DNA of 64,000 bases. Source: Clavelina lepadiformis. Taxonomy: Eukaryota > Chordata > Ascidiacea > Aplousobranchia > Clavelinidae. The position numbers were made by a program, and so were the translations under genes. The stretch is from positions 5,148,501-5,212,500 of the forward strand of contig NC_135243.1 in the NCBI RefSeq assembly GCF_947623445.1. Reading direction: 5' to 3'. Shown here one piece after another: positions 4,101 through 63,998 of the stretch; position 1 is the first letter of the stretch; each line of letters starts with the position of its first letter. Under the pieces are notes generated by a model. The model was not told the DNA's origin. It ran no database searches and saw only the letters and a list, made by a program, of their open reading frames with translations.

Positions 4101-7100
4101 TTCAAGAAATTCAACTGCAACCTGTAGCTTTTTATAACACATATACATGTCTTTGTTGCAGATATAGAATTTCTCAGTGACTTGTCAAGAAACACTGCAA
4201 CCTTTCAAACATTTCTGATTACCGCCAAGTTACTGCGTTCATCCGTCACTAAGCTATCAAGAGCGCCGATTTAAACACCTTACAAAAGGAAGTTTGTTTT
4301 ACGGCTTTTGAGACTGCGCTATAGCGCTAAAAAGCGTGCATTTAAACGTTTTTGCTTGCTTTGTTATGTACAGCACAGTTCAGCCGTAAACTACGCTAAA
4401 CTGCTATTCTGCATGACTACAGAATACTCACTGACGTCTGCTACAAGTTCAGCATCCGACACGCTTGACTGCTGTAGGCTATCAAAAAAAACAAAAAATG
4501 CTTTGGCTGAAATTAGCTGAGAACCAAGTTACGATCAAACCTGTCGCACAAATTTCTTCCGTCAGACATTTTTAAGTCGCTCAAGATATAACAGTTTAAA
4601 AAGAAACAAATCCCTTTTATGTCCCAAGTTATACCTTGCACTTTCAAAGCAAGACACTACGATTCATAGAAGTACTACTAGCCTACTTATGCTTGCAGAA
4701 AGTTAACCTGTCAATCAAATCCACACATATAAGCCCCCAGTCATAAATCATTTTAACCACGTTGATAATTTTTCATGGAAAAGAATATGTCTTAAAACTG
4801 TGTATAACAAACACTTTTCATTAAAAACTCGTAAAACGCGAAAAAGCCGTGTTGGCGCTTGTTTCTTGGTCATATTGTGAAACATGGGATAATATTCACA
4901 AATACTGTATACTTCATTTCACTTGCTTCGCGACCTGCCATAGTCCACAAACGCTTTCCACTGTACGCGCTGTCAACAAATTTCTTGAAACTGATAAACA
5001 CCAGGCGCTGACAGATTTAATTAGAATATAAATGATGGAAGTCAGAGGCATGATAAACGCTTTCTCTTTATACTAATTAAGTAATATACTGGAAGTGTCA
5101 AAAGGTATTCCCAGCATGCAACAGTCCCCTTGGGGTGACGGATCATTTGCATCCGAAAACCATTACGAAGGTCTGTTATACTAAAAGCAATTCTCGTTGT
5201 TTGTATTGGGTCGCGCGCTGTCAAATATGGCGCATGAATTTTTCATCAATCTAAGAAAATGCGCGGGCTTCGACGAGTACATTATTTCGTCACAACCATG
5301 CTTTTAAAGTCAATTAAGGCAAATGGCAATACTGCCAACAGCAAGGCAGATTCATTTTCGTAGTTTTATGGTGCATAAATTAAACAAAAGACGCTTTAAC
5401 GTGGCATAAAAATTTCCCTTCGTTCTCAAAGCAGTCAATTCCACTCAATTACGGCGAGCTTCAATATTGATTAGCGTAAAATCAGCAGCACCAAACACCA
5501 ATCACAGCGAAAGTAATAATGAAACTTCATGAAAGACAATTTACTTTTCTCTAAACATTTCAGCTACTCAAAACGCCCAAAATGCCTCCACGGTGTAATG
5601 TATAAAATGTTCAATGAATTTGTGCATCAACATAGAAATACAGGTCTGCGCGTAACCTAGGCATGTTTAATTTCAGCAAAGGTCTTCGCAATTCCATTAT
5701 GCGCATTGTGACTATAAGCTAATGGGTTTCTGAATTATTTCACTTGCTATTTGCAAGATACAAGCGTGGGGTCTTGCACTCATTTGGATTCAGGATACGG
5801 TAGAACGATTAGCTTGCAAAACAATGGAGGATGAACCAAAAATAGAAGTTGGTCATACGTTTAACCTACATTTTACATTTGCACAGAGACAGCATATTAC
5901 TTAATAATTAGCAGCCTTAACAACACTCGTTGACGTATAATTTCACCTTTTCGCAGTTAAAACACTAGTTCCTGCGCTGGTGGCAGCCAATTCTTACATC
6001 TACTACCTCAAAAACAAATTGGCGGCAATAGCTGCAAACGAAGCCATGACTACTATCGATTGGGAATCGGCCAGGCAAAGTTAATAGGCTACATATGGCG
6101 GAACGAACAATAATAATGAGATAATTACGGTTAAAGTCAAAAGAACTCAACTATTAATAGTTTATGTTATCGTTATAAAAATTAAAACCAGAAGCAAAAG
6201 TGTGTCTTATTAATAGTCGTAGTCGACGCGATAGGGTTCTGCATGATTGTTATGCATAACTTTTAACAACCACTTGGTTTCTTCCCAATGTATTACAGTA
6301 AAATAAACCACCATTAATATACAATGTTCAGGCCGAAACGGATTAATATGCGGAAACGTAGATAATAATTGACCAGTTGGATAAAGTCTATAACTCTATA
6401 GCTACAAGCTCGCAAAACGAATGAATGTCATAAGTTAACTTACGATGGGATCAATTATTATTCTCTGAACTGAAATATTTTGGTTAGTACAAGAATAAAT
6501 CTTCTGGAAAGATTATGACAACTTCGATTAAACATTACAGGCTGTCAATCTTTCACCAGAAAAAGTTGTACGTTCGAAGTTTTTTTCACAGTTTCTTATT
6601 AATCGAAATTGAATGTTTTTATAACATTGTAAGATAAACTTAACTAAATCTACCATAAATTCTAAAATAACTTCAGTCAAACTCTGAATAGCAAGAGTTA
6701 ACTTTTTCCTATCCTCCAAATCTAACCGCCTATATTTAACAACGAGCTGCATGACCTACTTCTGATAATATGGTCACTGCCTTGATAAAACATTATGGCG
6801 GGATATTGTCCGACAAGAATTTGAAGCCTATCGCAATACGCACGTACACAAAAGAACAGTTTAGTGGTGAAAAAAATACCTTGCTTAAAGTTTTTGGAAC
6901 TTGTGCAAAATTAGCTTTCAACATAAGACAACATACTATTTATAGTATAGACAACATTCCGGTTAAAAGTGGGCTGCAGCAGTTGTAAATTGGCTGATTG
7001 TTAAAACTTTCAAGTGGCTTAGTTCTTTCCATGCCAGTGGTTCGTGTGTTTGCAGAGCGCCGAAAGATTTTAACCGCAAAATAATCTAATTACTAAAATT

Positions 7101-16790: not shown

Positions 16791-19691
16791 TTAAACAACA
16801 GGAGGGGGTTGGGGAATAAGTGAGGAGAAAAAGGTGGAAACGAAACACCAGGCTGTAGCGAATATCGAAGGTGGCGCGGCTTCCATGGACTAGAAATAAA
16901 AAACGTATAAATTTATAAATCTTAACACAAACCTAAGTTACTATTTACTAATTACATTAATTGGTTTGATGCAAGGTGGATTTTACTCAATAGTGGTACT
17001 TCTACAGAATAAAGGAATATTCACTTTGTATTACCATTTAGCAGATATAAATTTTACTTTGAAACAAAACCTACAGTTTCAGGTGTTGTCCCATCACTGT
17101 TATTGCTATTGTTGTTGTCATCCTGCGGTGTGTTTGGACGTTCAACGGGAGCATTTCCATCGTTCCTGCGCTCAAGGTCATCAGGATGAGGAGGCCTCCT
17201 GGCGGCCCGAAAGACTCCGGCTTGGTAACTGATTGAAAAAAAAAACAAACTTCATCAGCATGTGCAGTCATTTTTGGTGCCTTCATCATTATTTGCTATG
17301 TATCTGTATCGGAAAGCTACTTTGAATTGCCACCATGTTTCAATCATGGTAATCACCGTTTAAACATTGACAAACTATTGCCAACATTTCAAAACTATGC
17401 AAGAATACTTCGAGCATTTAATGGCATGCGATCATGCTCACATGTATATGATGAGAGCCAGAGAAGCAACAAAGAGGAACCTCCACCAATCTGAGTAGAA
17501 ATAAAGAATGCTGAAGAAGAAGAGATATCTAACGAAGACGAAAAGGAGGTCCAGCCAATCCTGCTGCATGTCTTCGTCGTCGAGCGCGGCACCAAACGCA
17601 CCACCTTGTGCGTTCATCTGAATAAACTAGAAGTTGATTCAGGAATAATCAAATAAAAAACAGTGTACTATAGATACAGCCAATTATATACTATCATGAC
17701 AACAAAAACATATAGATTAGGCTTGTCATAAAATCGAAGCACTTAAAATAACAGATTTTATTAGGTTAAAAAGATTAAGAAGTATCCAGCAATAACATAT
17801 CTGGTGCCAGCAGTTCGTAGATCATACTAGCAATTCACTAGGCAACTAATCAACAACAACAGAATTCAGGTAACAAGATATTTATTCTACGTTGCAATAA
17901 CCAATTAACAGCTGTTATGCAGTCAACACTACATACCATGCCTCACTGCCAAGCCTACCAACAACAGTAGCACCATGATAAAATATTTTTCCTTCATATT
18001 TACCGGAGGGTTAGCAGGTGGTGCATTAGCTGGGGCTGCAACGGGAGCATTCTCAGGGATTTGTTCTTGAGCGGGAGGGACGGGTACATCAGACGTTTGT
18101 GAAACACCAGTATTATTGACATGACTCCAGTAGCTATAAAACATATCTTGCAGATTAATTGTGATCATTTTAATAGTTCACAGTGGAAGTTTTAATAATT
18201 TTTTAAGTATATGAATCTAACTGCAGTTTTATTTCATTAGCTCTAAACATCAATGGTCAGGCAAGTTCAATAATTTCAAGTAAAGAGCAAACTATGCGCA
18301 CTGTTGCATGTAATGATTCATCTGTTCCTGATACTGCCTCAACATTTCAGTGTATTGTGGATGCTGATGGGGTTGCTGCATATACCCAGGGTAGGCATGT
18401 TGCTGGTAATATGCCGCTAGCTGTTGCGGCGTCCAATGTGAGCGATTCCTAAAAAAAAACAAATAGAAAGCTTGACATGGAAGAAAACTTAAAATGTCAA
18501 CATAGTTCTAGCAAGAAAAAAATATTGAAGTTTCGGAACAGTAAAAAATGTTCAAATAAACTTTTGCGAAAATCAACTGGAAGAAGCATCTTACGTAGGG
18601 TCACTGGGGGAAGAATTCATACGGCGATGTCTTATCTCACTAGAGGAGGCTTCATTCAATTGGGGTGAGCTCTGTATAAGTAATAAAAATCGTTATGTGC
18701 CAGTGCCTTCTTTTTAGAAATTAAAGGATATTGAAAATCATCTATCAGAGCTATCACTAGACAACAATGATATCAAATCACGACAAGAATGCTTGGGCAA
18801 CTAGTATCTATTGGGGCAAAAAGAAGGGAGAAAGCACAGGTGATGGGCACTTACTTGATTGGTTGTGAGTGTTTCGTGTTGTGAGCTCGATGCTTCTATC
18901 GAGAGCACAAGGTGAACGATTTGCTGGTAATTTGTCTCCTAAAACAACAACCTTGTCAAAACATATTGCCAGACAATATGCTCATAAATACAGTGCCATT
19001 AGAATAATAACCGAAAATGAATCGTTACGTGCACACATGCAGTGCAGTGTAACCACTAAGTACACCGAGACCTGAATAACAACATTGTTGTTTCAGCAAT
19101 CACATTGAACAATCAATTTTACAAGTAAACACGAATTGCTGGTTTACACCATCAGACCAGCGGTGCCATTAAAATGACTGCATGGAAACTTGGGTAAATA
19201 TGACAAAATGTAAACATCAGTAACAACAGCAGCATTTTTCAACAACATGAAAAATAGAAGCTCATATGACTACTCGCCTTTAATACTGTTTTCAAAACGT
19301 CATGGTCCTTCAAATATTTTCCTCCATAAATTAATCTTTGGCTTTTAACTTCCTGTAATGCAAGTTATTTAAGTTTTTAATTATAGTCAGTGTGTTTTTT
19401 TACCTGTAGTCACTTGCACCACAACCATCAACATTATTACATTAGATATACACGGAGAGAGAGCAAGAATAATAATATTAAGATCTCTCTCTCTATATAT
19501 ATATATGTACAATATATGCCTCTAAGTTTTATTCTATATATGGAATAAAATTATCATACCGGTTTTCCAGGATATGATTCGGACAGAATCTGCTTTAAAG
19601 TCAGCACAGACCAATTCGGGTCACAAGCAACAGGGTGATCATTATGATGTGTTGGGGTGCGGATTGTAATAGTAATCCAATTGTCACTCAT
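16791..19691 (-). CDS. HERPUD: HERPUD-type ER membrane ubiquitin-like protein (full-length copy)
   Basis: Nine exons, in order 19560-19691, 19278-19352, 18855-18938, 18595-18671, 18302-18448, 18004-18133, 17442-17617, 17075-17228, 16791-16889. All phases agree; 357 residues. HERPUD proteins sit in the ER membrane and assist HRD1-dependent ER-associated degradation. Residues 1-75 form the ubiquitin-like domain (WITITIRTPTHH, then CDPNWSVLTLKQIL, then QRLIYGGKYLKDHDVL). A Gln/Tyr/Pro-rich linker (YYQQHAYPGYMQQP, then PANAPPANPP) follows. A membrane hairpin starts near residue 235 (DWLDLLFVFVRYLFFF), then YQAGVFRAARRPP. The last exon, AWCFVSTFFSSLIPQPPPVV, matches the conserved C-terminal helix of vertebrate HERPUD2. 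The second intron begins GC rather than GT (AAAG|GCGAGT). A shortened paralogue lies at 30229-31693. Confidence 0.92.
19481..19506. repeat. (CT)n(AT)n microsatellite
   Basis: A CT run passes directly into an AT run, ending TATATATATATATG. It lies in the first intron of the HERPUD gene (minus), close to the exon 1 donor. Confidence 0.8.
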
Positions 19692-34833: not shown

Positions 34834-35701
34834 GTTCCATGACATATGACCTCGGGAAAATGACCGCGAACAAACTCACCGGGGACAACTGAACGTGACG
34901 TAAATTGACCGCGAACAAACTGACCGTGATGTAAATTGACCGCGAACAAACTAACCGGGAACAGACTTACCGGAATGAAAATTGACCGGGAGGTAAATTG
35001 ACCGTGCAAGTGCTGAATTATTGTGGTTAAGTTGATGGTAGTATATGATATGTAAAGTAAATATTTGTTTGTAACTATTTCCTTTGTTTTTAACAAAATT
35101 TTTTTTTTATTTCAATACACATTGAAACATTTATTGAAATAAACAGAAATATTTCCGGAAATACGAGAAATACGAGTAACAACATTAAAAGAAGTTCACT
35201 GCAAAACACATATGACACTACATAATAAGGGCACTAAAATTTACACAAACTGTTATTTGACAAATAAGGAAGTTTATTGCGCAAATTGTAGGTTGTGGGC
35301 GATGCCTCAGAGAAAATCTAATATGTCACGGTTTGCAAAATCTTCAACGATGGTTTGAAGTCGCGCATCCAGATCCTTGTATTTTCTCCTTTTGGCAGGA
35401 GGCCCTACACCCTACAAGGGGCCAACAAACCCTACGAGTGGCAACCTTGACTGCAATACACATACTAAATTGGCTGGGATTAAAGCTGATGCGCGACTAG
35501 ATAGTGAATTAGAATTTTGACCTTTTGACGGCCAATTTGTCGCCGGTTAATTTGATCGCCGGCCAATTTATCGACGGTTAATTTCATCGCCGGCCAATTT
35601 ACGTCACGGTTAATTTCATCGCCGGCCAATTTGTTGCCGGTCAGTTGACCACTACCAGTTGTCGCCGGTGAATTTGTTCACGGTCATTTCACGTGATCCC
35701 C
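34834..35701. mobile_element. DNA transposon (868 bp) with sub-repeated inverted ends
   Basis: Both arms carry inverted copies of AAATGACCG-GAACAAA-TCACCGG-GACAACTG. Inside each arm a unit of roughly 35 bp (TTGACCGCGAACAAACT, ACCG, TAAA on the left; AATTTGTCGCCGGTTAATTT on the right) recurs several times. GCTTTAAAG flanks it on both sides (34825-34833 and 35702-35710) as a target duplication; because CTTTAAAG is palindromic it could partly belong to the ends. The centre (about 35010-35520) is unrelated AT-rich DNA with no transposase. The superfamily is not identified. Confidence 0.65.
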
Positions 35702-39433: not shown

Positions 39434-41167
39434 GGGGAGGGTGGGGTAAATCGTTCCAATTCACTGATTTCACCAAAAAATTTTACTTGTTTGTTTTGAG
39501 TGGTAACTCTAAGGTATTTCGCTAATTTTTGAAGTGCCCTTTTATTGATTGCTTGCTTTCTTACATAAATTTTTTTTGATTTAAAAGCTCCTCCAATAGT
39601 CCACTTTACCCCACATGTGTGGGGTAAAATGGACCACCGTAAGTTTTGAGTAAACAAGGCAATTTGTTCCACATCACAATCAATTTATTTACAAATTGTC
39701 ATCATAAGCGAAGTAGTTATGAAAGTAATCGCAGTTCACCATCAATTTTTAAAAACATAATTCACAAATAAAGTTGTCATCCTCTTCATTACACCCAGAG
39801 CAGGCTTCATGCGCCCACCGCATGCATTTGAAGCACTGGATCCACCCATCATTCTCGGATGATTTGGAATACATTTCGTTGCAGTAAAAGCATTCTGCAT
39901 CTACGTTGTTATCACTTTCATCAACAGTGTCCTTCTGCTGCATTGATGAATATGAGATAAGGTGGAACGTAACTTCCTCCAGCAGACATGCAAATCACTG
40001 CAGTGCACAAAGTGCCTCTTTCTGCTGAGGTAATATTTCCAACCTGCTTTTTCTCCTTCAACGCAAGCACCATGGATTGCTTTGTCTGAACTGTCGTAAT
40101 TCCAGTTTCGTCGACGTTGAACACATTGTGATGCTTAAAATGATGCAAGTCAATCACTTCTTCCAGGGGAGCAAAAAACTTGCCGACGCTCACACGATTA
40201 AACCCTCGAGCAGCAGATGTAGGCTCTGTGGTGCGAAGGCTTAGGCCTAATTGTGGATTGCGTTGAAGAAATCCACTTACCCAATCAACACCAGCAAGTC
40301 TCTTTTCCATGTTGAACCTGTGCTTAATATGATTTTTTTTCTGCCAATTCAAATGCAAGTGATTGGAGATGTTTCCTAGTGACCCCAAAGAATCGCCGCT
40401 CAAGTTCGAGCACATGTGCAACTAACTCTTTTTCTTGGGCTTCGGAAAATGTGGAATGAAACCTTCCAAGTCCCTTTTTGCTCCCAGTAGCATTAATATT
40501 ATCTCCTATTATCTCCTTGGACCCTTCTTATGAGTGTCGTTTTGGGAACTCCATACTGTTTGCTTGCTTTATGGTAGCCCATTCTCTTTTCATTTACTGC
40601 CCGAATGGCGATAGTCATAGCCTCTTCGGTCCAAGATTGTTGAGTTGATGTCCTTTGGCGGTTACGAGGCATTCCACAAAACAGGATTACAAGATAAACA
40701 TCACCTAATTCGGTCATGGAACTATAAACAATAAAAAGTTAACGATGGGGTAAAGTGGACCACCACTGGTCCACTTTACCCCCACCCCTTGGTTACTATT
40801 ATTTTGACTGTTGGCCAAATTTTGGCTAGTCAGTAAGCGGAATGAACCTATGTAATGCGTACGTGATACAGTAAAACTCCTTTCTACCATTCAACCAAAC
40901 TTCTACCTTATGCATGTGAAATAAAATCTAAGTTACAAGACATACCTTTCAATAGATCAGAGAGTACAAAAAACGAATTCCGTGCCTTTTCTTGCCTTCT
41001 TTTCCACGTAACCTAGAATAATGGCGTGTGCAACTACGTTATGTCATGCTTCACTAAACTTAGTGGTATCCGCACGGTTAAAGAGGGGTGTGAACTTAAG
41101 AAAAAAAAAAGAAAATAAGAGGGGTGTGCCACTTTACCCCTTTGGTCCGCTTTACCCTACCTTCCCC
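39434..41167 (-). mobile_element. pogo/Tigger-type DNA transposon, internally deleted (1734 bp)
   Basis: Terminal inverted repeats GGGGAGGGTGGGGTAAA (left) and GGGGAAGGTAGGGTAAA (right, reverse complement) are flanked by TA at 39432-39433 and 41168-41169, the Tc1/mariner/pogo target. Sub-terminal words GGGGTAAARTGGACC recur in both orientations near 39600, 40745-40785 and 41130-41150, and may be transposase binding sites. The minus-strand coding remnants inside are described separately. Confidence 0.85.
39749..40672 (-). pseudogene. pogo/Tigger (jerky-like) transposase remnant with PHD-like C-terminus
   Basis: Reading on the minus strand: MPRNRQRTSTQQSWTEEAM starts a psq-type helix-turn-helix (ending KASKQYGVPKTTLIRRV). 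In another frame comes the CENP-B type region (LGRFHSTFSEAQEKELVAHV). From about 40421 an intact stretch reads LAGVDWVSGFLQRNPQLGLS, then RTTEPTSAARGF, then FNVDETGITTVQTK, with the first catalytic Asp, and ends PPYLIF. The second and third acidic residues of the DDE core are missing, because the sequence jumps from PPYLIF to the C-terminal part. That last part (39749-39943) holds CFYC, IQCFKCMRWAHEACSGC and CELC, a PHD-like zinc finger. At least two frame changes and the internal deletion make the copy inactive. Confidence 0.8.
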
Positions 41168-47881: not shown

Positions 47882-49045
47882 ATGTCGAGTAAACCGGCTA
47901 CATTCAACAACTTTGCTTTGAGTATATATCAAACTCTTGCGGAGAACGAAACTGGAAATATTTTTCTATCACCATGCAGTGTGTCAGTGACTATGGCCAT
48001 GGTATTGCTTGGAGCTAAGGATAACACAGCGTTGGAATTAAAAGAAGGTCTTGGACATTGTGATATGGATGATTTAGAAGTTCATTGCAATAACTTGGAA
48101 ATTCTAAAAACGATCTGTGATACTAAAAACAGTATTGTTTTGGAAATAGTACACAAACTCTTTCCTGACATTGCATATAACCTGAAGAAGGAGTTTATAG
48201 AGAACTGCCAGATGTTTTATGAAAGTGAAATTGAATCGAAAAACTTTAAACAAAAATCCGAGCGCTCTAGATTGGAAATAAATCAATGGGTTGAAGATGA
48301 ATCGAATGGAAAATTTAAAGATCTTCTGCCACCAGGATCAATTGACAATCTCACTCGTCTTGTAGTGGTGAATGCTGTATACTTCAAAGGTGATTGGATG
48401 AGAAAATTCTTGCAAAAGGATTCAATGATAATGGACTTTCATATAAATGAAAGGAAGTGTGTCAAAAGTTTTATGATGTCGGTAAAGGACGAATTTAACT
48501 ACTACTATGATTGCGAGTTAAAAGTTCAAGTGTTAGAGTTGCCATATCAAGGGAATGATATTTCATTGGTATTGTTTGTACCAGACAAAATATTTGGTCT
48601 TAAGAAACTTGAGAAACGTTTAACTGCCGAAAAACTGATGTCTCTCATATCTGGCATTTCAAAAAAAGAAGTCGTGATTGCAATTCCAAAGATGAAACTG
48701 GAACTGCAATATGATTTGGTACCTACCCTGGAGAAAATGGGCATTAAAGATGTTTTTGATCAAAATCGAGCCAAATTGCAAAATATTTCTTCTGGACCTG
48801 AACTCTTTATTTCTGCAGTAGTGCACAGAGCAGTTATTGAAGTGAATGAAGAGGGAACTGGAACGGCAGCTACAACTACTTCAATAGCAAAATCGTCCAG
48901 GTTCAAACCCATAAAAGCGGAACCTACAAAGGTAATCTGTAATCATCCGTTTATGTTTGTTATCAAGCATAACACCAGCCAAAATATATTATTCATTGGA
49001 CGATTGTCTACCATGTCGCCTTTGAACGACATTGTAGGCAATTAA
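47882..49045 (+). CDS. intracellular-type serpin, probably inhibitory
   Basis: A single uninterrupted frame of 387 codons, close to the 380-400 of clade B serpins. It starts MSSKPATFNNFALSIYQTL and has no signal peptide, as in intracellular ov-serpins. Family blocks: NIFLSPCSVSVTMAMVLLGA (helix B), LVVVNAVYFKGDW (s3A), VLELPYQGNDISLVLFVP, and IPKMKLELQYDL. The hinge VNEEGTGTAATTTS (from residue 323) keeps E-E-G-T and small residues at P15-P9, the signature of an inhibitory loop that inserts as a strand. The scissile region is near IAKSSRFKP, so P1 is Ser or the adjacent Arg depending on loop length. NHPFMFVI and LFIGRLSTMSP complete the fold. Coding DNA has no introns; an acceptor (TTATGCTTAG) just before the ATG suggests a 5' UTR intron or a trans-splice site. 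It inhibits ser/cys proteases by family inference; the target is unknown. Confidence 0.95.
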   Translation: MSSKPATFNNFALSIYQTLAENETGNIFLSPCSVSVTMAMVLLGAKDNTALELKEGLGHCDMDDLEVHCNNLEILKTICDTKNSIVLEIVHKLFPDIAYNLKKEFIENCQMFYESEIESKNFKQKSERSRLEINQWVEDESNGKFKDLLPPGSIDNLTRLVVVNAVYFKGDWMRKFLQKDSMIMDFHINERKCVKSFMMSVKDEFNYYYDCELKVQVLELPYQGNDISLVLFVPDKIFGLKKLEKRLTAEKLMSLISGISKKEVVIAIPKMKLELQYDLVPTLEKMGIKDVFDQNRAKLQNISSGPELFISAVVHRAVIEVNEEGTGTAATTTSIAKSSRFKPIKAEPTKVICNHPFMFVIKHNTSQNILFIGRLSTMSPLNDIVGN

Positions 49046-51094: not shown

Positions 51095-51169
51095 CTCACT
51101 GAAGCGTGAAACCAGTCTTGTTCATCGTGAAAAACTTACTGACCTTAAACCAGTCAGCTGTGCACGTGG
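51095..51169 (+). promoter_or_regulatory. shared upstream module, copy 1 (gene A)
   Basis: Reads CTCACTGAAGCGTGAAACC, then about 45 bp containing TGACCTTAAACCAGT, then CAGCTGTGCACGTG. AGCGTGAAA to CACGTG spacing is 59 bp. The same layout recurs at 54281, 60604 and 62495, and weakly on the minus strand at 59510. It lies about 450 bp before the ATG of gene A. CAGCTG and CACGTG are E-boxes bound by bHLH or bHLH-Zip factors. Confidence 0.7.
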
Positions 51170-51622
51170 TGTGGTGTAGTGTGGTGGAGATTGTAAAACA
51201 TGTTTGGATGCAAAAACTGAGTAATAAGAGTATACCAGTAATATGACTTTCCTATCTTGTAGCGTTAGATGATACCATAAAGGTTAATATAAGATTTCAA
51301 TAATATCACAAGCTAATAATAATCACCTATTTTGAAGTAGAGTGCGCAACTTTCAGCTTTCACTGTTAACGTAGTTAATCTAACCAAAGAATTAAAATAT
51401 TTTTTCTGTGAAGTTTCTCTTTCGTTAAGCAAATCGCATATCTTTTAAAATACATTTTTTTGGAAAAATCGAGGTTATGTAAGCAAATTAAGTCATGTGA
51501 GGTAACTTTTGTTTTATGAACAGCAGACAGATATTTTAGTTTACTTCTGTTTCAATTAATTTAAACCCAAAACAAGATTGTTGACGACGCCAGGCGAAAA
51601 ATCATTGAAATCAAGTCCCAGT

Positions 51623-51922
51623 ATGAAAGAAGCCAAAAACACCGACGGCTGTAAGCTATATTTAAAACGTTGTAAGGTTTTAAAATTAAAACAAAATTTA
51701 TTTTTATGTTGCAGTTGGGTTGTTCCGTTGTTTGATCGTGGTTGTTTTCGTTGTGTGCGTAATTGTGTTTGCAGCAAAGCTTACCTGGGAAATCTTAAGG
51801 TACTTTTTGTTAAGTATAAAAAGTATTGTTTCATGGTTGAAGTTTAAGCTTTAATTGTACAAAGATGCATGAACAAACCTTTCTTTGATATATTTTACAG
51901 GCTCAACGAACTTCTCAACTAG
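51623..51922 (+). CDS. gene A: 44-aa single-pass membrane protein
   Basis: Exons 51623-51650, 51715-51799, 51901-51922, with phases 1 and 2 matching. The product reads MKEAKNTDG, then FGLFRC, a hydrophobic segment LIVVVFVVCVIVFAA, KLTWEILR, LNELLN and stop. The TM exon is entered in phase 1, as in genes B, C and D below. An in-frame stop lies upstream of the ATG (near 51557), which supports this start. I recognise no family; the sequence is too short for domain calls. Its exons 2 and 3 have diverged copies at 53211 and 53415. The module at 51095-51169 probably drives it, with a 5' UTR intron between. An even shorter or alternatively spliced product is possible. Confidence 0.55.
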
Positions 51923-53210
51923 CATGAGTAATCTCATGGAAGGGACACTTGAATGTTTAAAATAAAGGCACCTTTGAAGAATAATACTGTAATTTTTACC
52001 AGCAACGATTGGAAATACTTCCATATTGATGTATTTAAGAAGTTTTCACTAAATATGTTGCGGCATCACAACGTGTTCTTATCTCCAATACTGTATTATA
52101 TAACAGATCATTATGTACAGTATTATTTTGAGGATTTTTTAAAAGTTGATCTCTTAAAACAATTAATTGTAACAGATAATTGTCTGCTTTGGGTTCAAAT
52201 TTGTGCTTGAAAATAAACGGCAAACTACACTTTCAAATCGACGGTTTGTTGCTAATGTAGATATTTGTAGTGATTACGTCATAAAAAAATTAAAACAAGA
52301 AAAATCATCCACTATACTATTAGCATGGAAAAAATTAGCGTTTTAATCTTGTTACATGTGGAAAGGCGCTCGGTAATTTATAAGTGTTATTTATGTTGTA
52401 TTCACGCTTAGATTTATAGGCATATGTTTTATTCAAAGCAGTTAAGTTAAAAGTTGCAATGACACAGCTCATCCCAAGAAATCCAACGTAGAATGATCAT
52501 GGCTATCTGTTGGACACAGGTTGAAAGACACACGTGCTCAATCAAGAACAAAAAAGTGTAATCTGCCGCAAGGGAAAACATCACGAACCACAGAGCAAAA
52601 CATGTGTAACATAACCAAAGAATTGGCAAAACGAATTCTCTCGGTGATTCTAATGTTAAGAGTTGAGTTTCTAACATGCAGTAAAGATGGATTTACATTG
52701 CTGTTAAACCACAGTTTACGGTGGAAATACTGTAAAGGATTGAATTATCTGTTGTCAAAAGGCGGTTCAGTTTAATAATATAATATAACATTTAAGCGAA
52801 TTCAAATTGCCTTTTTGAAAACGTTTTACCAACTCAAGATATTTGTTCAAAAGATCACAAATTATATCGCTACGATGAAAAATAGAATACCAAACACTGC
52901 AAAGACTTTTTTTCATTTTTTCCAAAATTCGATTGCGCACAGAGGGAATGAAACCCTCCCCAACTTGACTTTAGTTTTATGAACAGTTGGCTTTTTAAAA
53001 GACCACTTTTGCTTTTGTTTTGTTTTAAATACTTTAAACCCTGAGCAACAACATTGACAAGGTCAGACAAAAACTTATTGCAAACAAGTGCATGTACAAG
53101 TATAAGGCCAATATTTCTGACGTTTAAATGCTTTGCATCTTGTTGAATTCAGTAAGCTGTAGATACTTTGGAACAAAACGCAATTTTTGTAACTTTGTTA
53201 TTTTTTACAG
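51923..53210. other. gap between gene A and its partial copy
   Basis: No shared promoter module and no secure exon are visible. An ATG at 52874 (MKNRIPNTAK) faintly resembles the first exon of gene A but lacks a clear donor. Confidence 0.35.
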
Positions 53211-53599
53211 TTGTGTTGTTCGTGTGTTTTATCATTACTTTTTTGTGGAATGTGTTGTTTGAAATAGTGCGTTGACTTGTTGGGGTATCTTGAGGAAGAA
53301 TCAGCTTAAATGTTTTGCTGAGTATCAAGCAGCTATTGGTTCACAGGGTGGTGACAACTAATACGTCACTTCTACAGACACTTTAAAATAAAATTTAGTT
53401 GAGATATTTCACAGGCTTGCAACATATCTTAAAAACACAAGTTGCTATAAGGACGAGGAAATCATTAAAGCGAACAAACCTTGTACAGCGTAAAAATTTA
53501 AAGCGAGTTTTGAAATACATTCATAAAAGAACCGTCTTTCATAAAAGGATTCATCAAACAATTTGTGACATTTCAATCTTACATTATCTCCAACAGTGA
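53211..53599 (+). CDS. gene A' : partial duplicate of gene A (TM exon plus basic tail)
   Basis: Exon 53211-53270 follows TTATTTTTTACAG and matches the gene A TM exon at the DNA level (TTGTGTTGTTCGTGTG against TTGGGTTGTTCCGTTG). It encodes VLFVCFIITFLWNVLFEIV. Exon 53415-53599 follows TTTCACAG, aligns with the gene A last exon, and reads on in phase for 61 codons. Its tail is strongly basic (LKTQVAIRTRKSLKRTNLVQ, then KNLKRVLKYIHKR) before the stop. The junction C|GC is phase 1, where gene A uses phase 2. No first exon or promoter module was found, so this may be a truncated copy or alternative 3' exons of gene A. Confidence 0.4.
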
Positions 53600-54280
53600 A
53601 TCATATCACATTTTATCAAGTATAGTATTGTTATCTCCGCTTTTTTCAAAGATTTTATTACAAACTTTCAACGCTGCCAGTTACATGTTAACAGACGTTA
53701 CATATTAAGGCATGAGTTTAAAAGTTGACTCCTGGCTACTGAGAAATAAGTCAAACCGAGAGACGAATCGTCTCAAAATACCTGCTGAAGGGCAGAATAC
53801 AGCTGGACAAAAATTACAATTTAAAAAATCTTCGACAAATTTTTTTTATATGTATATATAAATTAATATAAGGTTTAAGTTGATTAATTACATGTACCTT
53901 GAATCTTTAATAAACCAATAATACCTTTCAAACAGGTTTAGCTTTGTCAAACACAGAAAAAAACGATTTTGTGTAACAGATTATTGAAAGGTAACAAACA
54001 TACAGTTTGTTTCATTGTCAAATATTGGATTTGCAGAAAATTATTTACGCCTCGATAGCATTTCAACCTTACCAAGATTATTTTATTTAAACAACACAAT
54101 GTTGATTGCCATAAGTTAGACTTTAGTTCTAAACATGCTAGCTAGTCTCGAAATCAACGAAAAGTAAAGCAATGCTTATCACAAAGGCTTGTCAAATCTG
54201 TTTTAACCTACACCAAACAAAAGGTAAAGGCATTTGTTTCCCTACACAAAATGTAAATTATATACTCAATATTCTTGTTT

Positions 54281-54356
54281 ACTGAAGCGTGAAACCAGTC
54301 TCGCGCAACATTTAAACTACAGTAGAGTGACCTTCAATCAGGTGGTTGTGCACGCG
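54281..54356 (+). promoter_or_regulatory. shared upstream module, copy 2 (gene B)
   Basis: Reads ACTGAAGCGTGAAACCAGTC (identical to copy 1 over its first 20 bp), then GTGACCTTCAATCAGGTG, then GTGCACGCG. The E-box is CACGCG rather than CACGTG. Spacing is about 64 bp. It lies about 410 bp before the gene B ATG. Confidence 0.7.
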
Positions 54357-54768
54357 CCGTACGTTAGTTCTGTAACTGCTCATAAGCAGATAGTAATTTT
54401 GCATTGCATCATTTTCGCTACTTCAAGTAAGATTAGGTTTGTTCCTGTTTTAGTAATGTGTCAATGAAGTCATAAATGTTATCAATCTAAAGATTTCTTC
54501 TTGTTTAGGCCATATCCTATAGTATGAAATTGATGTACCTGTGGTATGATATCTGTTGGAATAAAACTCTGTGTTGACTAAAAGCGTATGGTCAAGTGTT
54601 TGGCTGTAGCATAGTTAGTTTTGCGAGTCTCTCAAAGCATACTTTTTAACAAAGAAACGTTTTGCAAAATATTTAATGTCACTTCGATTTTGATCAACAG
54701 TTCAGAAATATTTCTTTAGTTAAAACATTTGTTTTTTATTTTGCTTTGAATATTTTCACTCATTTGGT

Positions 54769-55565
54769 ATGGAAGTAAGGTATGATTACCAAATAAGGGA
54801 AGGATCAAGTTCCAGCGAAGACGACAGTAAAGAAGAGCAACAAGTTGTCGACAGTGATTTTAGTATAACATGTTTTTATTTTATTAGTATATGTTGTAAA
54901 AAATCGAAAACTTTCAAATTTTGTTTAATTGTGTTTTGCAGTTGAAGATGTATACGAGATTTCGCACGGTGTATTTTATATGGGGTTTATATGTTTACTC
55001 ATGTGGAGTCTTATACAATTGGTGTACCAGCCAACATGTAAGGTGTGTATGAAGTATAATAAGAGACACTTTGTCATTGACAACAGCAAATTTTACTTTA
55101 ATGAAAGATACTAAATGGTGTTAAACAAAATATACCATTAACAATGTTTCGTGATTTGTTTTTTTCAGGAAAATCTTTTTGAAAACCCAACTACCACGAA
55201 AGCTCACGGGGACATTGAAGGTAAAGACATACTTACAAAATTAACACTTAAAAATAATGTTTGAAACAATTTTGAATTAATTTTGAAGGGGACCAGCTTT
55301 ACATTCTAGATTTTTTTGATATCACTATCTGACATTCCCCGACGACTAGTGGATGAAAACAGAACTATAGCTTTTTATGAAGATTTTAATAAGTTGACAT
55401 GTTTTGTAAACATATCATGATGTTTTGTGTTTTTTGTTCGACATTCGTTTGAAATAAACAGTTTTCGTGATTTTAACAATGTATTTCTTAGGGCTAGTTT
55501 ATTGTGTTTGTATCAGCAATCATCACTATATAAAGGTAAGTAGTGATGCGTTACACCAACGTTAA
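54769..55565 (+). CDS. gene B: 106-aa single-pass membrane protein
   Basis: Exons 54769-54862, 54942-55042, 55169-55220, 55492-55565; phases 1, 0, 1 agree. The cytoplasm-like N-terminus is acidic and Ser-rich (REGSSSSEDDSKEEQQVVDS). The second exon, 101 nt, holds the membrane segment (GVFYMGFICLLMWSLIQLVY) and ends PTCK. The third is hydrophilic (ENLFENPTTTKAHGDIE). The last reads GLVYCVCISNHHYIK and continues to a stop; AAG|GTAAGT inside it is also a good donor, so a longer form is possible. The TM exon has the same length and phases (1 in, 0 out) as that of gene D, though the protein sequences differ completely. With a short N-terminal arm and no signal peptide, a type II orientation is plausible. 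No known family. Confidence 0.6.
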
Positions 55566-56329
55566 GTGACAACACCTGATGTTAAGTGACAATTAAGTTA
55601 TGCAGACAATTTAACCACAATTGTAGGGTAATTTGTAGTAACTCCCAACCCTGTAAGCTTGCAAATGATAATGTAAAAAGGTTTTTAAATCGCAAAAAAT
55701 GATGTTGAAGAAGTTTTAAAAGCATTTTTTCATGTGTGTTTTAACACTCATTAAAAATTTGCAGCCCTAAAGTGCACACACAAACAAACACTTTTGGAGA
55801 ATATTTTTAGATTTCTCTGCAACCTTCGCAGCAGTGATACATCAAAAACCGATGGTTTTTGGTTTATCGTGTTTTATTACAAATGCTATTTTCGAAGTTA
55901 CAGCTTGTTAGTTGTGTATAAAATGTGTATTTGTAAGATTTAATGCGTCTAGAGTTTAGGGTAATACTGGAATCTAATAGAAAATTAACAGTTAAAAGAG
56001 ATGGGTACAAAGATGTACAGTTTGCTGCGCAACATTAAGCTTTGTTTGTACAACATTTTTAATATTTTGCTTCGGCTTTACTTTTAATTTCTTACTTAAC
56101 ACTTTCTAGCCTATTTACAACACAAATGTGAACGTTTACCGCGGTAGTGTTTAAACATAAATTTAAAGTTTGTATATATCTACAGCAAAAAAACACAGAA
56201 ACAGCAAGCATAAAAATAATTTGCAACAAGGCACAAACGAGTTTAAACAGAAACACCCTATACGTAATAGGTAACCACTAGGTCCGTCCAAATAATGGGA
56301 GTATGATCGTCAGGTACAGCAGATAAGTT
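55566..56329. other. between convergent genes B and C
   Basis: No exon or repeat was recognised. The two genes end towards each other here. Confidence 0.4.
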
Positions 56330-58866
56330 TTATAAAAACATTTCTAATATATCTGCTGGTGGAGAGGGAAAGGAATGACTCTAAAAACAAAGCAACAGTT
56401 TATGTTGTTCCTATACCTGGATATATGAAAGTTTTAAGAGAAAAACTAAAAGCTTGTCTTTAACTAACAAACATACCTTGGGGGAATAATGAACTAAATC
56501 GTATATAAGTATACCAATACCCGCGAAAAAAGACACTACCAGAATGAGGAGGATAACACGACAAAACCGTCTCTGCCTTATAGCTGCAAAACGACAAAAT
56601 AGATGGTTAAGGATATGTTGGTTTTGGTTAAAACCTAGGAGAGCTTTGCATTTCATAAAATTTACTTAGTACTTGATAGACCACTTCAGATTCAAAATCA
56701 ATCAAATCGAATGAATATACTGTTGGAAGCCTGATTTCATATGATTTATCCCTATCGAGTCTCGGCAATGGTGCTCGTGCTGTGAAGTAAAAAGAATTAT
56801 ATTCGGAAAACGTTTGAACCTGTTAACTACAGAATTGTTTACAAATATCTTTAATAACACCAAAACAATTAAAAAAAACAACTTAAAAACAAAGCAAAGC
56901 CATGTGCAAAATGTGGAGCAAAATGAATTTTCGCTTCAACATCATGCAAAGTACAGAAGTTTGTCACTTTTACTGGAGAGGTTGCTGCTGTAAAACTGCC
57001 TATTGATCACTTTAAAGGTAAAATAATGTTAAGTGTCGTATTAAAAAGCATTTCACAAAAATTTACATCTGTCTTCGTTTTCTGGGTTGTAGCTTGCTGA
57101 CATCTCTTTGAATAGTTTCGATGCCGTTGTTGGTGATGCTGGTGCTGGTGCTTTAAAAAAACGAAATTTTCCAAAGTTGAATTCGTTAAGACCTAACATT
57201 AGAGATGTATTAATGTTACCATACGTACAGTAGTTGCAACATTATTACTTCGTTACTGTTATGAAACAATTGCTTGTAAATGTGTTGAAATTTGCGAAAA
57301 ATTTCATTCTCCTGAAAACATTCAGCTCAGGTTTTGTGAGAAACCAAGCTTTTAGTATCAACGTTCGTGCAAGTTTGTACCCAGCCCATAACAAAAATTT
57401 CGTTTTTTCACAAATCTAAAGAAACAACATTTAATCGCAGGTTTTGAGTGCGTCAGAATTGACAGTATATGTGAACAGATTTACCTTCATCAACGTTTTC
57501 TTCAGTGTCTTCCTGTTCGTTGTTGACAGAACATGTTTCTGTTTTATTGACTGGCATCGTCAAGGCTGACAAATTGTTAGTTAAACTGTTAGACGCCAAT
57601 AAAGATAAATTCTGGGACATTATACAATAGCTCTGTGAAATACTGTATAAAACACGTGTTAATACACCGAAATTTCGTGGAATTAATCTATTTTCACACC
57701 TTCAAACTTATAAAAAACGATAAAAAAGTTTCTGTAAATTCTGCAGCTTCCGCAGATCTTTTTGTAAACCAAAGAAAACCTGGGAAATATTTTACAGAAT
57801 TTATATTATTTTGCAAAACTTACGTTCTTCAACGTTTTCTTCGTCTCTCTTGGCGTTGACACTTGATACCATCGTATTGACAACTGGCACTGTCTCTTTT
57901 GGGGCTTAAAAAATGAAAATGTTTTAAACTTTTTTAACTAGAAAACATTCTTTTTAAATTTAGTTAACATATTATAGGCATAACCTACCAAGGTGTTCCC
58001 ACATGATGTGGCAGAATAATTGTTATCATTTAGGGTAATGAAATAGGTTTTGACGGCAATTTGATGATTTTGGAAACAATTAACATTCTGGACAGCGTAA
58101 GTTCTTTAAAAATTATCAGTTTCAGAACGAACATATGTCAGTTCATTACAATTTTCTTAACTTACTTAAGTACATTGTCAATTGGTTTGTGACTGATTAG
58201 AGGGAGAACTTGTTAATCCATCCAAAAAGCTTTTCTCAAGTTTAAATTTTTTGCGCATGCTAATAGTAATGAAACAATATCATAAAAACTTTTAGTCATT
58301 TTATGAATGCTACAAAGAAGCAAAGTGTATAAGCTCATTGTTTTTTTTATTTGCAATAACCAGTACAGCATATAACATAATAAACCTTTTTCGACCTTTT
58401 TGTTGTCTTCGTCGTCGATAAACTTCAAGTTAGTCATATCCATGCCTAACATTTGACCTATTAATATTAACTGGTGGCTTAAATATAGGAAATAAAAAAA
58501 CACTCGATAAATTGAACTTTTTTTCGTTAAAATTGTTTCAAATTTGAGACATCAACGTTTTTTTGATTTTCTTTGATGCTGAAGCTTGATTCTGTATTGG
58601 CCACTGGCAATGTCGTGGCTTATGCTTCTGGTGGTAATTAAATTGTTCAAAACATTTGCTAAAATTAAATTGCGATAAGCACTAACATAACACTAAAAAT
58701 TTAAAGCTAAAGTTAAAGGTTTAACTTTAAGGATATAAAATTTTCTTGCTTATGTTCAATACTTTAATATTAAACCTTGCAGAGACCTATTGGTCTTACC
58801 TTCAAGGGCCTTTACATCATCATGCTCGTAGCCTAAGCTCGTTTCCATTGTATTGTTGTCTGACAT
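56330..58866 (-). CDS. gene C: 194-aa membrane protein built from symmetric cassette exons
   Basis: Exons: 58800-58866, 57824-57904, 57485-57565, 57067-57150, 56666-56779, 56477-56583, 56330-56380. All junctions are phase 1 until the TM exon leaves in phase 0. Exon 1 gives MSDNNTMETSLGYEHDDVK. Exons 2 and 3 are both 81 nt and related (VVNTMVSSVNAKRDEENVEE; TETCSVNNEQEDTEENVDE). Exon 4 reads APAPASPTTASKLF. Exon 5 reads ARAPLPRLDRDKSYEIRLPT followed by an acidic stretch. The TM exon has IRQRRFCR, VILLILVVSFFAGIGILI, then YDLVHYSPK. The last exon is SHSFPSPPADILEMFL. Positive residues before the TM and no signal peptide suggest N-in topology with a very short outer tail. Cassettes of phase 1-1 can be skipped or added without a frameshift, so alternative splicing is likely. 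A dead cassette lies at 58551. Exons 5-7 have an inverted paralogue, gene D. No known family. Confidence 0.65.
58551..58624 (-). pseudogene. dead cassette exon of gene C
   Basis: Matches the 81-nt cassettes of gene C: TLPVANTESSFSIKENQKNV followed by D, against PVVNTMVSS...ENVEE in exon 2. It has a TAA two codons into the frame and lacks the GT donor after AACGTTGATG. It lies between exons 1 and 2. A further degenerate stretch at about 58380-58470 (DMTNLKFIDDEDNKKVEK) may be another cassette with a weak GTTTAT donor. Confidence 0.55.
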
Positions 58867-59424
58867 TCTTGTTTTGGCAATTTGTGGTTTAAAACATTTA
58901 AAGTAAAAATAATGATTTTATAACTTAAAGTTATATTTGTTTCCTTTCCTGAAAAAACGTCAGTCACTGTATAGGCAAGTGGTGGTTACTAAACATGGTT
59001 GGCAACTAGGAAAAAACTGATAGGACTTTAACTAAAACACCTGTTCAAGCAAAGCGCTTATATTATACATAGATCTGTATCAGCTCTTACGAAACATTGG
59101 TTAATAATTGGTAAAATAGAAATGTTAAACTTTAGGCTGACACTATTTCATAGGAAAATCAGTTCGAAGCTACTTTTCAGATTAGCTTGTTAACCTAACA
59201 TAAATTTTATGACATAGTAAACTAAAGCTATCCTAAATCTTTATTTTAATCTAAATCTAACTCAAATAAAATCCTAGTTAGCTCTAAACAACCTTTACTT
59301 TCCTATTCTCCACACCTAGCCGCTTATCTTTTACAACAGGCGGCGTTACCGACATATGGTGTTATAATCACTTTGTAAATTGTAATCAAATTAATCGCAA
59401 GGTAGCCATTCCAAAACTATTTCA

Positions 59425-59457
59425 GAAAATACGATAGAAAATACGATAGAAAATACG
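59425..59457. repeat. 12-bp tandem repeat, about 3 copies
   Basis: ATAGAAAATACG repeats just downstream (minus direction) of the gene C promoter module. A palindromic AAAATACAAA-TTTGTATTTT pair occurs nearby at about 59735-59760. Confidence 0.7.
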
Positions 59458-59509
59458 TCGTTTGCCAAGCACTCACCTCTCAGTAGTTTCAAACAAGACT
59501 GCTACTCGC

Positions 59510-59561
59510 CACGTGCGCTAAGGAAGGAGGTCTTCGTCAAGCAAGGTTGTTTGCACGCTCC
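59510..59561 (-). promoter_or_regulatory. shared upstream module, diverged copy (gene C)
   Basis: On the minus strand it reads GGAGCGTGCAAAC, then GACGAAGACCTCC, then GCGCACGTGG. The order AGCGTG then CACGTG matches the plus-strand copies, but spacing is about 43 bp and the CAGCTG box is missing. It lies about 640 bp before the gene C ATG. Confidence 0.4.
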
Positions 59562-60603
59562 ATCGAACACAGACAATTTTTATTTTTAAAGCATTGAAGG
59601 GAAATAAAAGTATATGCATTTGAATGGGGAGGAGTTTAAAAATAGAAAAATAACATGAACAATAACAACGATATGTATTTGACAACTTTACATTCAATAA
59701 AATACAAAGCTTGTATTTACAGCTTTTATTTACTTGTAAAATACAAAGTTTGTATTTTATTAGATTTTTATCCGGTTTAGTTGATCAACCTCCAAGTTTT
59801 CATTGGTTACGTACTAGTAGTATAAATAGCATACATTCCTTAATAATAGCAACCTCAAGGAAATTGGTGATTGACGCTTGAAGAAATGACACCTTTTGCT
59901 ATATACGCTACCTAATGACGTATCATTTAAAATCAATGCAATTTCTGTCTCACGCTATTGATACGCTGACAAGTCGGTTGCAGCATGAAGTTTTTCATTA
60001 AAAAATCTAAAAAGATTGTTGATTTCTAGTATTACTACAAATTAAAAATAATTTCGAAAAACTATTTTTAGATAACTATTTGCATTCCAAAAAATAATTC
60101 CAGTGGTGTTATTGATTTAACGTAAAAATCACTCAGTTAACAATCATAACTATTAGACTAAAAATGTGTGACATTCACTTAAAATCGAGATAATCAATTC
60201 ATTTCTATACACCAAGGCATTTGAAACAGTTTTTGGACTCGGTGTAATTTTATCTCATTTCTTTCAGTTTTTTACATGTTTTATTTAACTTTATAAAAAC
60301 GGTTTTGATTTTGTATATTTTTTGCGCTTATGTTTTAAATTTTAATCTAAAACAAGTAAAAGAGAAATTAAAGGGAGGCATGTGCACATATATTGTGGAA
60401 AAATATTTCTAAATATATAACAAGATAACAATTATACAACCTGATGACAAGTAACCAAAGAACAAGCAACTAACCCTACTTTACTCTACTATCTTGTTGG
60501 AGAAAGATTCGTGCGAGCTTGGATGCCTTGCAAAACATGATTTTGTAATAAAAAAGCAGTAATTATTCTCCCCATCAAAAAATTTTGATTTTTTGCTCGT
60601 GCT

Positions 60604-60676
60604 TATTGGAGCGTGAAAGGAATTTTGATTGACCAATGAACTTTGCTGACCTTCGCTCAATCAGCTGCGCACGTGA
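60604..60676 (+). promoter_or_regulatory. shared upstream module, copy 3 (gene D)
   Basis: Reads ATTGGAGCGTGAAAGG, then GCTGACCTTCGCTCAATC, then CAGCTGCGCACGTG. AGCGTGAAA to CACGTG spacing is 59 bp, as in copy 1. It lies about 335 bp before the gene D ATG and about 0.95 kb from the oppositely oriented gene C module, so genes C and D are divergent. Confidence 0.7.
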
Positions 60677-61010
60677 TGTGAGATCTCTTTAGGCTGTTCA
60701 GAAACAACTAAACAAGCTGTCGGTATGCAACTTAGTCGACGTAAGATTGCTTAAATTTAAAGTGATCAATTGGCAGTTTTACAGCAGCAACCTCTCTAGC
60801 GAAAGTGACAAATATCTGTATTTTATACTTCGTTTTGCGCCACACTTTGCACGTGGCTTTGCTTTGATACTTGCTTTTACTTAAATTGTTTTTATAACCG
60901 CTTTAAAATTATCCAAATTGATTTATTCAGGGCATTCGTAAACATTTCTTTAGTTAGAGGTTGAAAGGTTTTCCGAATATAATTCTATTTACTTCACAGC
61001 ACGAGCACCA

Positions 61011-61433
61011 ATGCCGAAGGTCGATATGGAGGAAGCATATACATACAAACGTCGAAGAAATGTCAGTCAATTTAAACCGATGCGTTTTCCAACAGGTAAA
61101 TTTCATGAAATGCAAAGATCTCCCAGGTTCTAACTAAAAGCAACATATTCTCAACCATCTGTTTTCTCTTTTAACAGATTCAGGACTTACAGAGTGGCAT
61201 TGTATGTACTTTCTCGTGCTTTCGCTTGTTTTAATGATTGTGGGTTTCTGTATTCATATGTCAATGCATTATTACCAGGTATATTTGCTAATTGGTGACA
61301 AGCTTTCAGCTTTTGTCCAAAAACTAGAAATTGATAATTTAGGCCTATCATGGTGATAGAAAAAGATAAACTTTTGTCTTATTTTTAGATTCATTCCTAT
61401 CTCTTTCCACCAAAGGCCTCGTTTGACCCATGA
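61011..61433 (+). CDS. gene D: 76-aa single-pass membrane protein, inverted paralogue of the 3' part of gene C
   Basis: Exons 61011-61095, 61178-61278, 61389-61433; phases 1 and 0 agree. The first exon follows TTTACTTCACAG and reads ARAPMPKVDMEEAYTYKRRR across the acceptor, against ARAPLPRLDRDKSYEIR in gene C; here an ATG replaces the Leu codon. The TM exon (101 nt) has TEWHC, MYFLVLSLVLMIVGFCIHM, then SMHYYQ. The last exon, IHSYLFPPKASFDP, aligns with SHSFPSPPADIL of gene C. The upstream intron (60757-60890) is also clearly related to the gene C intron at 56870-57015, in the opposite orientation. So part of gene C was copied in inversion and joined to its own promoter module. TM sequences have diverged strongly. 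Confidence 0.65.
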
Positions 61434-62494
61434 ATATATTATAGGTAAAGACACCTCTTCAAGATGGCAAAATTTTCTTATCGTTTTAAATCTTTGAAAT
61501 ATGTTTCTAAATTTCATTTACCTTAAGCCCATACCCAAAGGTTTTTGTAACATGGCGGTGTTGTAAGTCTAAAGCTCTATTTCGTTGGGCTTGGGGTTAA
61601 CTTATAATGTACAGGGTGCTTCTATTGATTTAAATTCTGTTGTGCAGTGTTGCAAATAATTTTCGGCCTGTCTGTTTATAGTTATAAACATAAGCATAGT
61701 CAAGCTTTGATGTTTTGCTTAAACCTTACAGCAATAAACGCTCACATTTGTGCTGTAATCTGACAACACTATTCTTCTGTCAATTATAAAACCTTAACAC
61801 AGTGCTAAATGAACTTCAAGTCATGAACAATGTTTTGCATTATTTGTATGTGTAGCTCTTCGAGTATAACTCTTAGTTGCCAAATTATTAAGTTAATTGT
61901 TTCGTTTTTTGTCATGAAATTTATTGATAAATATTACAATCTTAATATAATTTTCTACATGGTCAATAAAATGTCCTGCTTGGAAAGGTAACATCTTCGA
62001 AATACTTGGAAGAGTGGGTTTCAGTTTGATTAAAATTATGACAATACTTCACAGTTAAAGCTCATAAAGTTTGGTCCCTTATCTTATATCTTTATCCTTT
62101 AAAGTTTTGCGCATTATTGATTCCTCTAATGGGGTGTTTGATGATATAGTATTTATGTGTTTCATGTAATCAAACCAATGCAAAACATTTGAATTTATGA
62201 GTAGATGTCAACTTAGATCAAAGTTTTCTTTGTAACTTCTATGCATGAGATAAAAAATGGTTTAAGAATTTTGTCACAGTAGCGACATTGTTAAGAAATT
62301 TTGAATGGAAAACGATCTCGATCTAACTTCCCTTTTAGTATTTCAGTAAAATCACACAGAAATTTCGTTTAATTTTCCTTATAAATTAATTAGCTGACAA
62401 AGGTTTGTCAACACTCTGTAATGTCTTTTATATTTATTACTCAATAACAAACATTTCTTGTCTCCAACTAAATTTTAAAAATAAGTTAGCATTT
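61434..62494. other. 3' flank of gene D; nothing recognised
   Basis: AT-rich sequence between gene D and the fourth shared module. No exon, repeat end or RNA gene was seen. Confidence 0.4.
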
Positions 62495-62567
62495 CTCACT
62501 GTAGCGTGAAATTAACCTTCTCCAATAACGTTGTCTTGACTGGCTTTTACAATCAGCTGAGCACGTG
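62495..62567 (+). promoter_or_regulatory. shared upstream module, copy 4 (no gene assigned)
   Basis: Reads CTCACTGTAGCGTGAAATTA, then TTGACTGGCTTTTACAAT, then CAGCTGAGCACGTG. AGCGTGAAA to CACGTG spacing is 58 bp. No matching exon set was found between here and the window end, so its gene is either beyond the window, degenerate, or too diverged to see. Confidence 0.65.
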
Positions 62568-63714: not shown

Positions 63715-63998
63715 TGGATTTTTGAATCAGCAGAAAATTTCAAGATCAGGATCAGGATGCTGCAAAACATGCTGCAGTATAAATTCAGTCTAATAATTTC
63801 GGCTATTGACCCGATAAAAACATCGGGGCAAACACCCGTGAATATTTGTGTGCCTATCTGCGGCAACACGGCCCAATGCAATGCAGCGGCGTATTTTGGG
63901 AAAAATGGATAAAACATCATCGTTGGTTGGTTATCATATAAATTAAACGTACCTTTGGTGACTAAGTGGTGGATAAGTATAGCGGACCAAACACAAAA
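63715..63998 (-). CDS. multi-pass membrane protein, partial exon at window edge
   Basis: An open frame runs from the window edge to AAATCCA|GTAAGT at 63715, leaving in phase 2. It encodes at least 94 residues with SAILIHHLVTKG, then MMFYPFFPKYAAALHWAVLP, then GVCPDVFIGSIAEIIR, and LYCSMFCSILILILKF. Hydrophobic stretches alternate with short polar ones, as in a polytopic membrane protein. The start and the upstream exons lie right of the window. A second donor-like site (CACCAAAG|GTACGT) occurs near 63951 but is not needed. The family is not recognised. Confidence 0.45.

Follow-up and report, generated by a model that had tools for sequence, protein, structure and literature searches.

Small predicted membrane-protein genes behind a repeated, putatively promoter-proximal module in Clavelina lepadiformis, and an inverted gene pair with introns better conserved than most of its coding sequence

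Genes of the major histocompatibility complex (MHC) have introns that are more alike than their exons, the latter being under diversifying selection. For snake venom proteins, a pattern named ASSET has been described in which, in the part of the report considered here, introns remain more than 85% similar and segments of exons are turned into unrelated ones (PMC2711939). The bicycle genes of aphids form a large family with salivary-gland expression in which gene structure outlives protein sequence, according to the portion of the account used here (PMC9168663). We present a locus from the ascidian Clavelina lepadiformis, found in a stretch of 64,000 nucleotides (contig NC_135243.1, positions 5,148,501 to 5,212,500, forward strand) that is referred to below as the window. 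Here, four small genes predicted to encode single-pass membrane proteins lie behind copies of one short module, and two of these genes, D and E, form an inverted duplication visible in the introns. The explanation that we judge most likely, while holding it tentatively, is a fast-diversifying membrane-gene family in which coding exons change under a conserved, shared promoter-proximal module. The gene letters (A, A', C, D and E) are our own and may differ from those of a preliminary description of the same DNA, which had reported the module and had not included the duplication.

All gene models were drawn by eye from the sequence and consist of predicted exons. Gene D lies on the plus strand (60725..61433; exons 60725-60740, 61000-61095, 61178-61278 and 61389-61433; 85 residues) and gene E on the minus strand (56330..58866; exons 58866-58800, 58457-58386, 57904-57824, 57565-57485, 57150-57067, 56779-56666, 56583-56477 and 56380-56330; 218 residues). 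Each has one predicted membrane helix, and E also has acidic N-terminal exons, two of which fall within stretches that are 68% alike; the donor of its exon 58457-58386 is weak, and this exon may be skipped. The duplication pairs 60739..61758 of the plus strand with 56115..57034 of the minus strand in two aligned pieces of about 68% identity, its start roughly coinciding with the first splice donor of D. In both arms the introns are conserved and most of the coding sequence is not. Intron identity is 79–88% (65/74 and 129/150 in intron 1, 69/82 in intron 2 and 75/95 in intron 3), and the opening 42 bp of exon 2 align gap-free, with 33/42 identical positions. The remainder of exon 2 (32/54), the membrane exon (62/95) and the last exon (28/45), on the other hand, are at the level of shuffled DNA, for which the means are 62.7%, 64.3% and 61.8%, respectively. 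In this one pair, coding segments at shuffled level thus stand beside conserved stretches and are restricted to exons. When the exon mask was rotated along the whole D/E alignment (exon identity 0.554, intron identity 0.793), 1 of 749 rotations was equal or better; these rotations are not independent, and the figures were the same under three MAFFT settings. The last base of exon 2 of E (56666) was counted with the intron, and falls in a gap column. Such a contrast between introns and exons hints at rapid selection on the proteins.

The likeness to the ASSET venom genes lies in similar introns (above 85% there, 79–88% here) next to unrelated exon segments, with frame and fold type kept; the mechanism is given as unknown in the available part of that report (PMC2711939). 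Venom genes, as the same part describes them, differ in that their products are cysteine-framed toxins that are secreted, carry a conserved signal peptide and occur in many isoforms, whereas here there is one pair of small membrane proteins with no recognised domain, in which the membrane segment itself changes. Toxin-family features were not found in any of the four models: none has a Pfam match above the curated cut-off (the best being DUF2244 for A, with E 0.042 and 14 bits against 27) or, by eye, a signal peptide at its start.

The absence of a recognised domain also bears on the possibility that the modelled exons are noncoding, with the conserved parts being noncoding elements and the exons an unconstrained spacer. 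The block of 65/74 in intron 1 would suit this reading, as would the low scores of the modelled exons in a codon-usage gene search. This search was trained on one serpin gene and was too weak to add genes. Yet an unconstrained spacer should diverge like the introns and not down to shuffled level, D and E agree in their splice sites, in phase and in the position of a hydrophobic segment, and no Rfam family reached its gathering score in the window. Of all the explanations considered, we regard this one as the least probable.

Two further features of the D/E introns were observed. The block of intron 1 that is identical at 65/74 positions extends over 60751-60824 in D and 57021-56948 in an intron of E, and may represent either a regulatory element or an exon that escaped recognition. 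In intron 2, reading through from exon 2 (61096-61131 in D and 56665-56630 in E) leaves about 11 codons open with, by eye, a similar end peptide; it is possible that this gives a soluble alternative form, or it may be due to chance.

The module was described as having four plus-strand copies and one weaker minus-strand copy, and this was borne out. The window has four exact copies of the head, AGCGTGAAA, and no more, all of these being on the plus strand (at 51103, 54286, 60610 and 62503), compared with a chance expectation of 0.58 on average, 4 being attained by 1 of 100 shuffles, while the weaker copy, GGAGCGTGCAA, is on the minus strand at 59562-59510. Allowing for up to one mismatch to TGNAGCGTGAAA on both strands, 5 heads are found in the window, and all 5 have a tail (a GCACGTG-like sequence, one mismatch allowed, 40-75 bp behind the head). 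In order-3 Markov simulations of the window, the mean number of head–tail pairs was 0.037, with one pair in 11 of 300 simulations and two or more in none; as the pattern was derived from the same data, this comparison should be considered post hoc. We named the copies A (51100..51168, plus; head CTGAAGCGTGAAA, followed by TGACCTT, CAGCTG and GCACGTG), C (54283..54355, plus; exact head, TGACCTT and a degenerate tail with CAGGTG and GCACGCG), D (60607..60675, plus; exact head, TGACCTT, CAGCTG and GCACGTG), F (62500..62567, plus; exact head, TGACT, CAGCTG and GCACGTG) and the weaker E (59510..59562, minus; GCACGTG tail 44 bp behind the head).

Counted from the initial base of AGCGTG to that of CACG, the spacing is 60, 65, 60 and 59 bp in the plus copies; in the minus copy it is 44 bp. 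The reported TGACC/TGACT element was recovered, as TGACCTT in three plus copies and TGACTGGCTTTT in the fourth. Several other details of composition did not hold. The base preceding TGN, given as A or T, is C in three of the plus copies, T in the remaining one and A in the minus copy only, and the reported pair of E-boxes, CAGCTG and CACGTG, is exact in plus copies A, D and F, while the copy at 54283, reading CAGGTGGTTGTGCACGCG, has neither in exact form, and the minus copy lacks CAGCTG.

Pairwise comparison of the copies gives a mean identity of 0.95 for the head (its first 8 bp) and of 0.94 for the tail (7 bp), compared with 0.60–0.61 in the bins adjoining the head, 0.53 in the bin before the tail and 0.2–0.5 in most others. 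The module itself is real, with both ends conserved and the flanks much less so. A donor pattern, GTRAG, which was picked after inspection of the data, is located no more than 75 bp past the tail in 3 of the 5 copies, as compared to 301 of 3456 arbitrary points. Together with orientation, this fits a promoter-proximal element ahead of a short first exon. Each predicted gene stands behind a module of 53-73 bp with two fixed ends, AGCGTGAAA and, at a distance of about 60 bp (44 bp for the minus copy), a GCACGTG-like E-box; TGACCTT and CAGCTG usually lie between these ends. This module may serve as a shared promoter-proximal switch that is bound by E-box factors of the basic helix-loop-helix (bHLH) type and by other factors, with transcription probably beginning just behind it. 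Candidate readings of the module as an MHC class II-type, T-box, AhR-type or Su(H) element were also considered. The module might instead be the best-kept remnant of duplicated upstream DNA, with no regulatory role. Upstream similarity that includes the module extends over 279 columns between A and C (60.6%) and 92 columns between A and D (70.7%), and the copies may accordingly derive from one duplicated stretch. A remnant of this kind, however, does not account well for identities of 0.95 and 0.94 at head and tail next to values of 0.2–0.5 in the spacer and most flank bins, nor for a spacing kept near 60 bp in four copies, and we consider it highly improbable.

The four modelled genes (A, C and D on the plus strand, E on the minus strand) all lie behind a module of the same orientation, and one of the five modules has no gene in view. 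Gene A (51623..51922, plus) has exons at 51623-51650, at 51715-51799 (or to 51813) and from 51901, giving 44 or 63 residues and one membrane helix. Gene C (54769..55565, plus; exons 54769-54862, 54942-55042, 55169-55220 and 55492-55565; 106 residues) has an acidic N terminus and one membrane helix. Behind A lies A' (52968..53688, plus), a diverged copy of 51505-52183 (60%) that looks broken and has no clear module ahead of it. A dispersed repeat of about 240 bp, which is found three times in the window (59125-59372, 11297-11058 and 6528-6778; 64–71% alike), by eye resembles a miniature inverted-repeat transposable element (MITE); one of its copies separates module E from the first coding exon of gene E.

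To find membrane exons, both strands of 49-64 kb were searched for strongly hydrophobic coding stretches with splice-like borders, yielding 20 rows at 9 distinct places, four of which were used in models A, C, D and E and five in none. The preliminary description had pointed to membrane exons entered in phase 1. This is true of all four models, yet it is also true of 6 of the 9 distinct candidates, so that phase alone is weak evidence. One such candidate, on the minus strand at 63715-63802, is in an open reading frame with no Pfam match and may belong to another gene past the window. By the positive-inside rule, basic residues beside a helix mark its cytosolic side. As judged by eye, such residues directly precede the helix in E and are found at a greater distance before it in D, which suggests that the N terminus of both is cytosolic.

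Relations among the genes were examined in 28 pairs of module-downstream stretches, among them a control stretch and the two strands that follow module F. D and E (z 126) and A and A' (z 18) are clear relatives. D against the minus strand behind F gave z 4.4 (score 20, where the best of 40 shuffles reached 18), and was taken as noise, D against the control reaching z 2.5.

Under the explanation that we favor, a cluster of small single-pass membrane-protein genes would have been enlarged partly by tandem and inverted duplication, and the coding sequence of D and E is mostly rewritten or replaced between splice sites, with the introns kept. The coding exons, including the membrane segment, may be under diversifying selection for new protein faces, perhaps in a recognition or conflict role; the label of a recognition, defence or secretion family in the preliminary description is likewise conjectural. 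Support for such selection comes from 27 gap-free codons of D and E, anchored at conserved edges (19 from exon 2 and 8 from exon 4) and chosen for being gap-free. These hold 19 replacement and 2 synonymous differences, with a replacement distance (dN) of 0.40 that exceeds the synonymous distance (dS) of 0.11, and p = 0.005 for replacement compared with intron.

Several results weigh against this explanation. In the same selected codons, replacement compared with synonymous change gave p = 0.068, and all 78 paired codons gave dN 0.61 and dS 0.45, with p = 0.22. Within the membrane exon alone, dN (0.68) is lower than dS (0.81), which is not what base-by-base selection on amino acids would lead one to expect; either the alignment is meaningless there, or segments were replaced, or these exons predate the introns. 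The identity of intron 3 (78.9%) barely passes the best shuffle (78.2%), and introns 1 and 3 are partly gappy and poorly conserved. Only the single pair of D and E could be aligned for the exon–intron contrast. In A and A' there is no reversal (exon pieces 0.65, 0.58 and 0.53; introns 0.59 and 0.65), and this comparison is affected by A' looking broken. The combination of conserved control with fast-changing proteins that had been proposed for the cluster is supported for D and E, by their introns and exons together with the conserved module ends; A and A' show no faster exons. No DNA similarity was detectable downstream of the module between A and C (z 0.3), A and D (z -0.3) or C and D (z 0.7); common ancestry of A, C and D/E, which we infer to be one family, thus rests on module and architecture. 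Finally, no plus-strand membrane exon is found behind module F in the remaining 1.4 kb of the window, a point on which the preliminary description was not confirmed. As the all-codon test and the membrane-exon dS argue against simple positive selection, our confidence was lowered slightly.

The high dS of the membrane exon brings in the main rival explanation, namely that gene conversion keeps the introns of D and E alike while conversions touching the exons are selected out, leaving exons that are old and not necessarily fast. A dS of 0.81 greatly exceeds the distance between the introns (about 0.13–0.25), as would be expected if the exons were older, and MHC genes, which resemble the present pair in having introns more alike than exons, have homogenised introns beside diverse exons, although no immunoglobulin or MHC domain is present here. 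Nonetheless, conversion would have to end close to either splice site of an 82 bp intron, and the dS of 0.11 in the gap-free codons matches the intron rate, indicating that this part of the exons is as young as the introns. We thus consider gene conversion rather unlikely, though it carries appreciable weight. The same exons could also have been swapped by recombination as whole segments with unseen family members, and not base by base. The shuffled-level identity of the rest of exon 2, the membrane exon and the last exon would follow from such swaps, and switching of exon segments by a mechanism stated to be unknown is described for venom genes in the accessible part of that report (PMC2711939). 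There is, however, no donor copy in the window, and the change starts inside exon 2 instead of at its border, making segment exchange quite unlikely. A hint, noted by eye in one alignment, that third positions of the membrane exon were conserved was dropped as a candidate signal: matches were 16, 20 and 16 of 32 at positions 1, 2 and 3, and the third-position value was reached by 36% of shuffles.

Should rapid exon change under the module extend past this one pair, membership in the family would be better marked by control DNA and introns than by the proteins, and the venom-protein pattern would be extended to small membrane proteins. The origin of orphan membrane microproteins would also become testable, as these could be old genes that were rapidly rewritten and not new ones. 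The broadest form of this idea, which we find doubtful, is a genome-wide invertebrate family of tiny membrane proteins held together by module and intron sequence only, in which duplication is followed by replacement of coding exons, including the helix, with unrelated sequence, so that a diversifying set of membrane proteins would arise under one switch. Bicycle genes, in the available portion of their description (PMC9168663), likewise call for families to be recognised by coding-independent features, but here there are four predicted genes, linked by promoter module and introns and known from sequence alone. The variable self-recognition proteins of the Ciona s-Themis / v-Themis self-incompatibility system, as the part of the report considered here presents them (PMC7344649), are only a possible setting; the present models are of 44-218 residues and have no recognised domain. 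A keyword search of titles and abstract openings found no description of such a module or family, which is not proof of absence. A pattern scan for a conserved intron stretch in genome contigs and one for the module in viral contigs each gave 0 matches; both are uninformative, as these two collections are not meant for animals and may omit records of the window's own genome.

The surrounding DNA is animal-like, with short introns and a G+C content of 0.32–0.40 across the window in 4 kb steps. A single-exon serpin gene lies at 47882-49042 (Pfam PF00079, E 5.5e-107; best solved relative, leukocyte elastase inhibitor), and exons of a glycine-cleavage H-protein are found near 14.9-15.75 kb. On the minus strand, an open reading frame at 17932-18177 encodes a Pro/Ala-rich stretch followed by a hydrophobic end, without a Pfam match, and another at 39752-40421, also without one, by eye resembles a transposase of the Tigger/pogo type and is adjoined by a weak PHD-finger match (E 0.0043, below cut-off). 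Tandem arrays with units of about 15-31 bp occupy 34857-35643, where the arrays at 34857-35004 and 35529-35643 are oppositely oriented.

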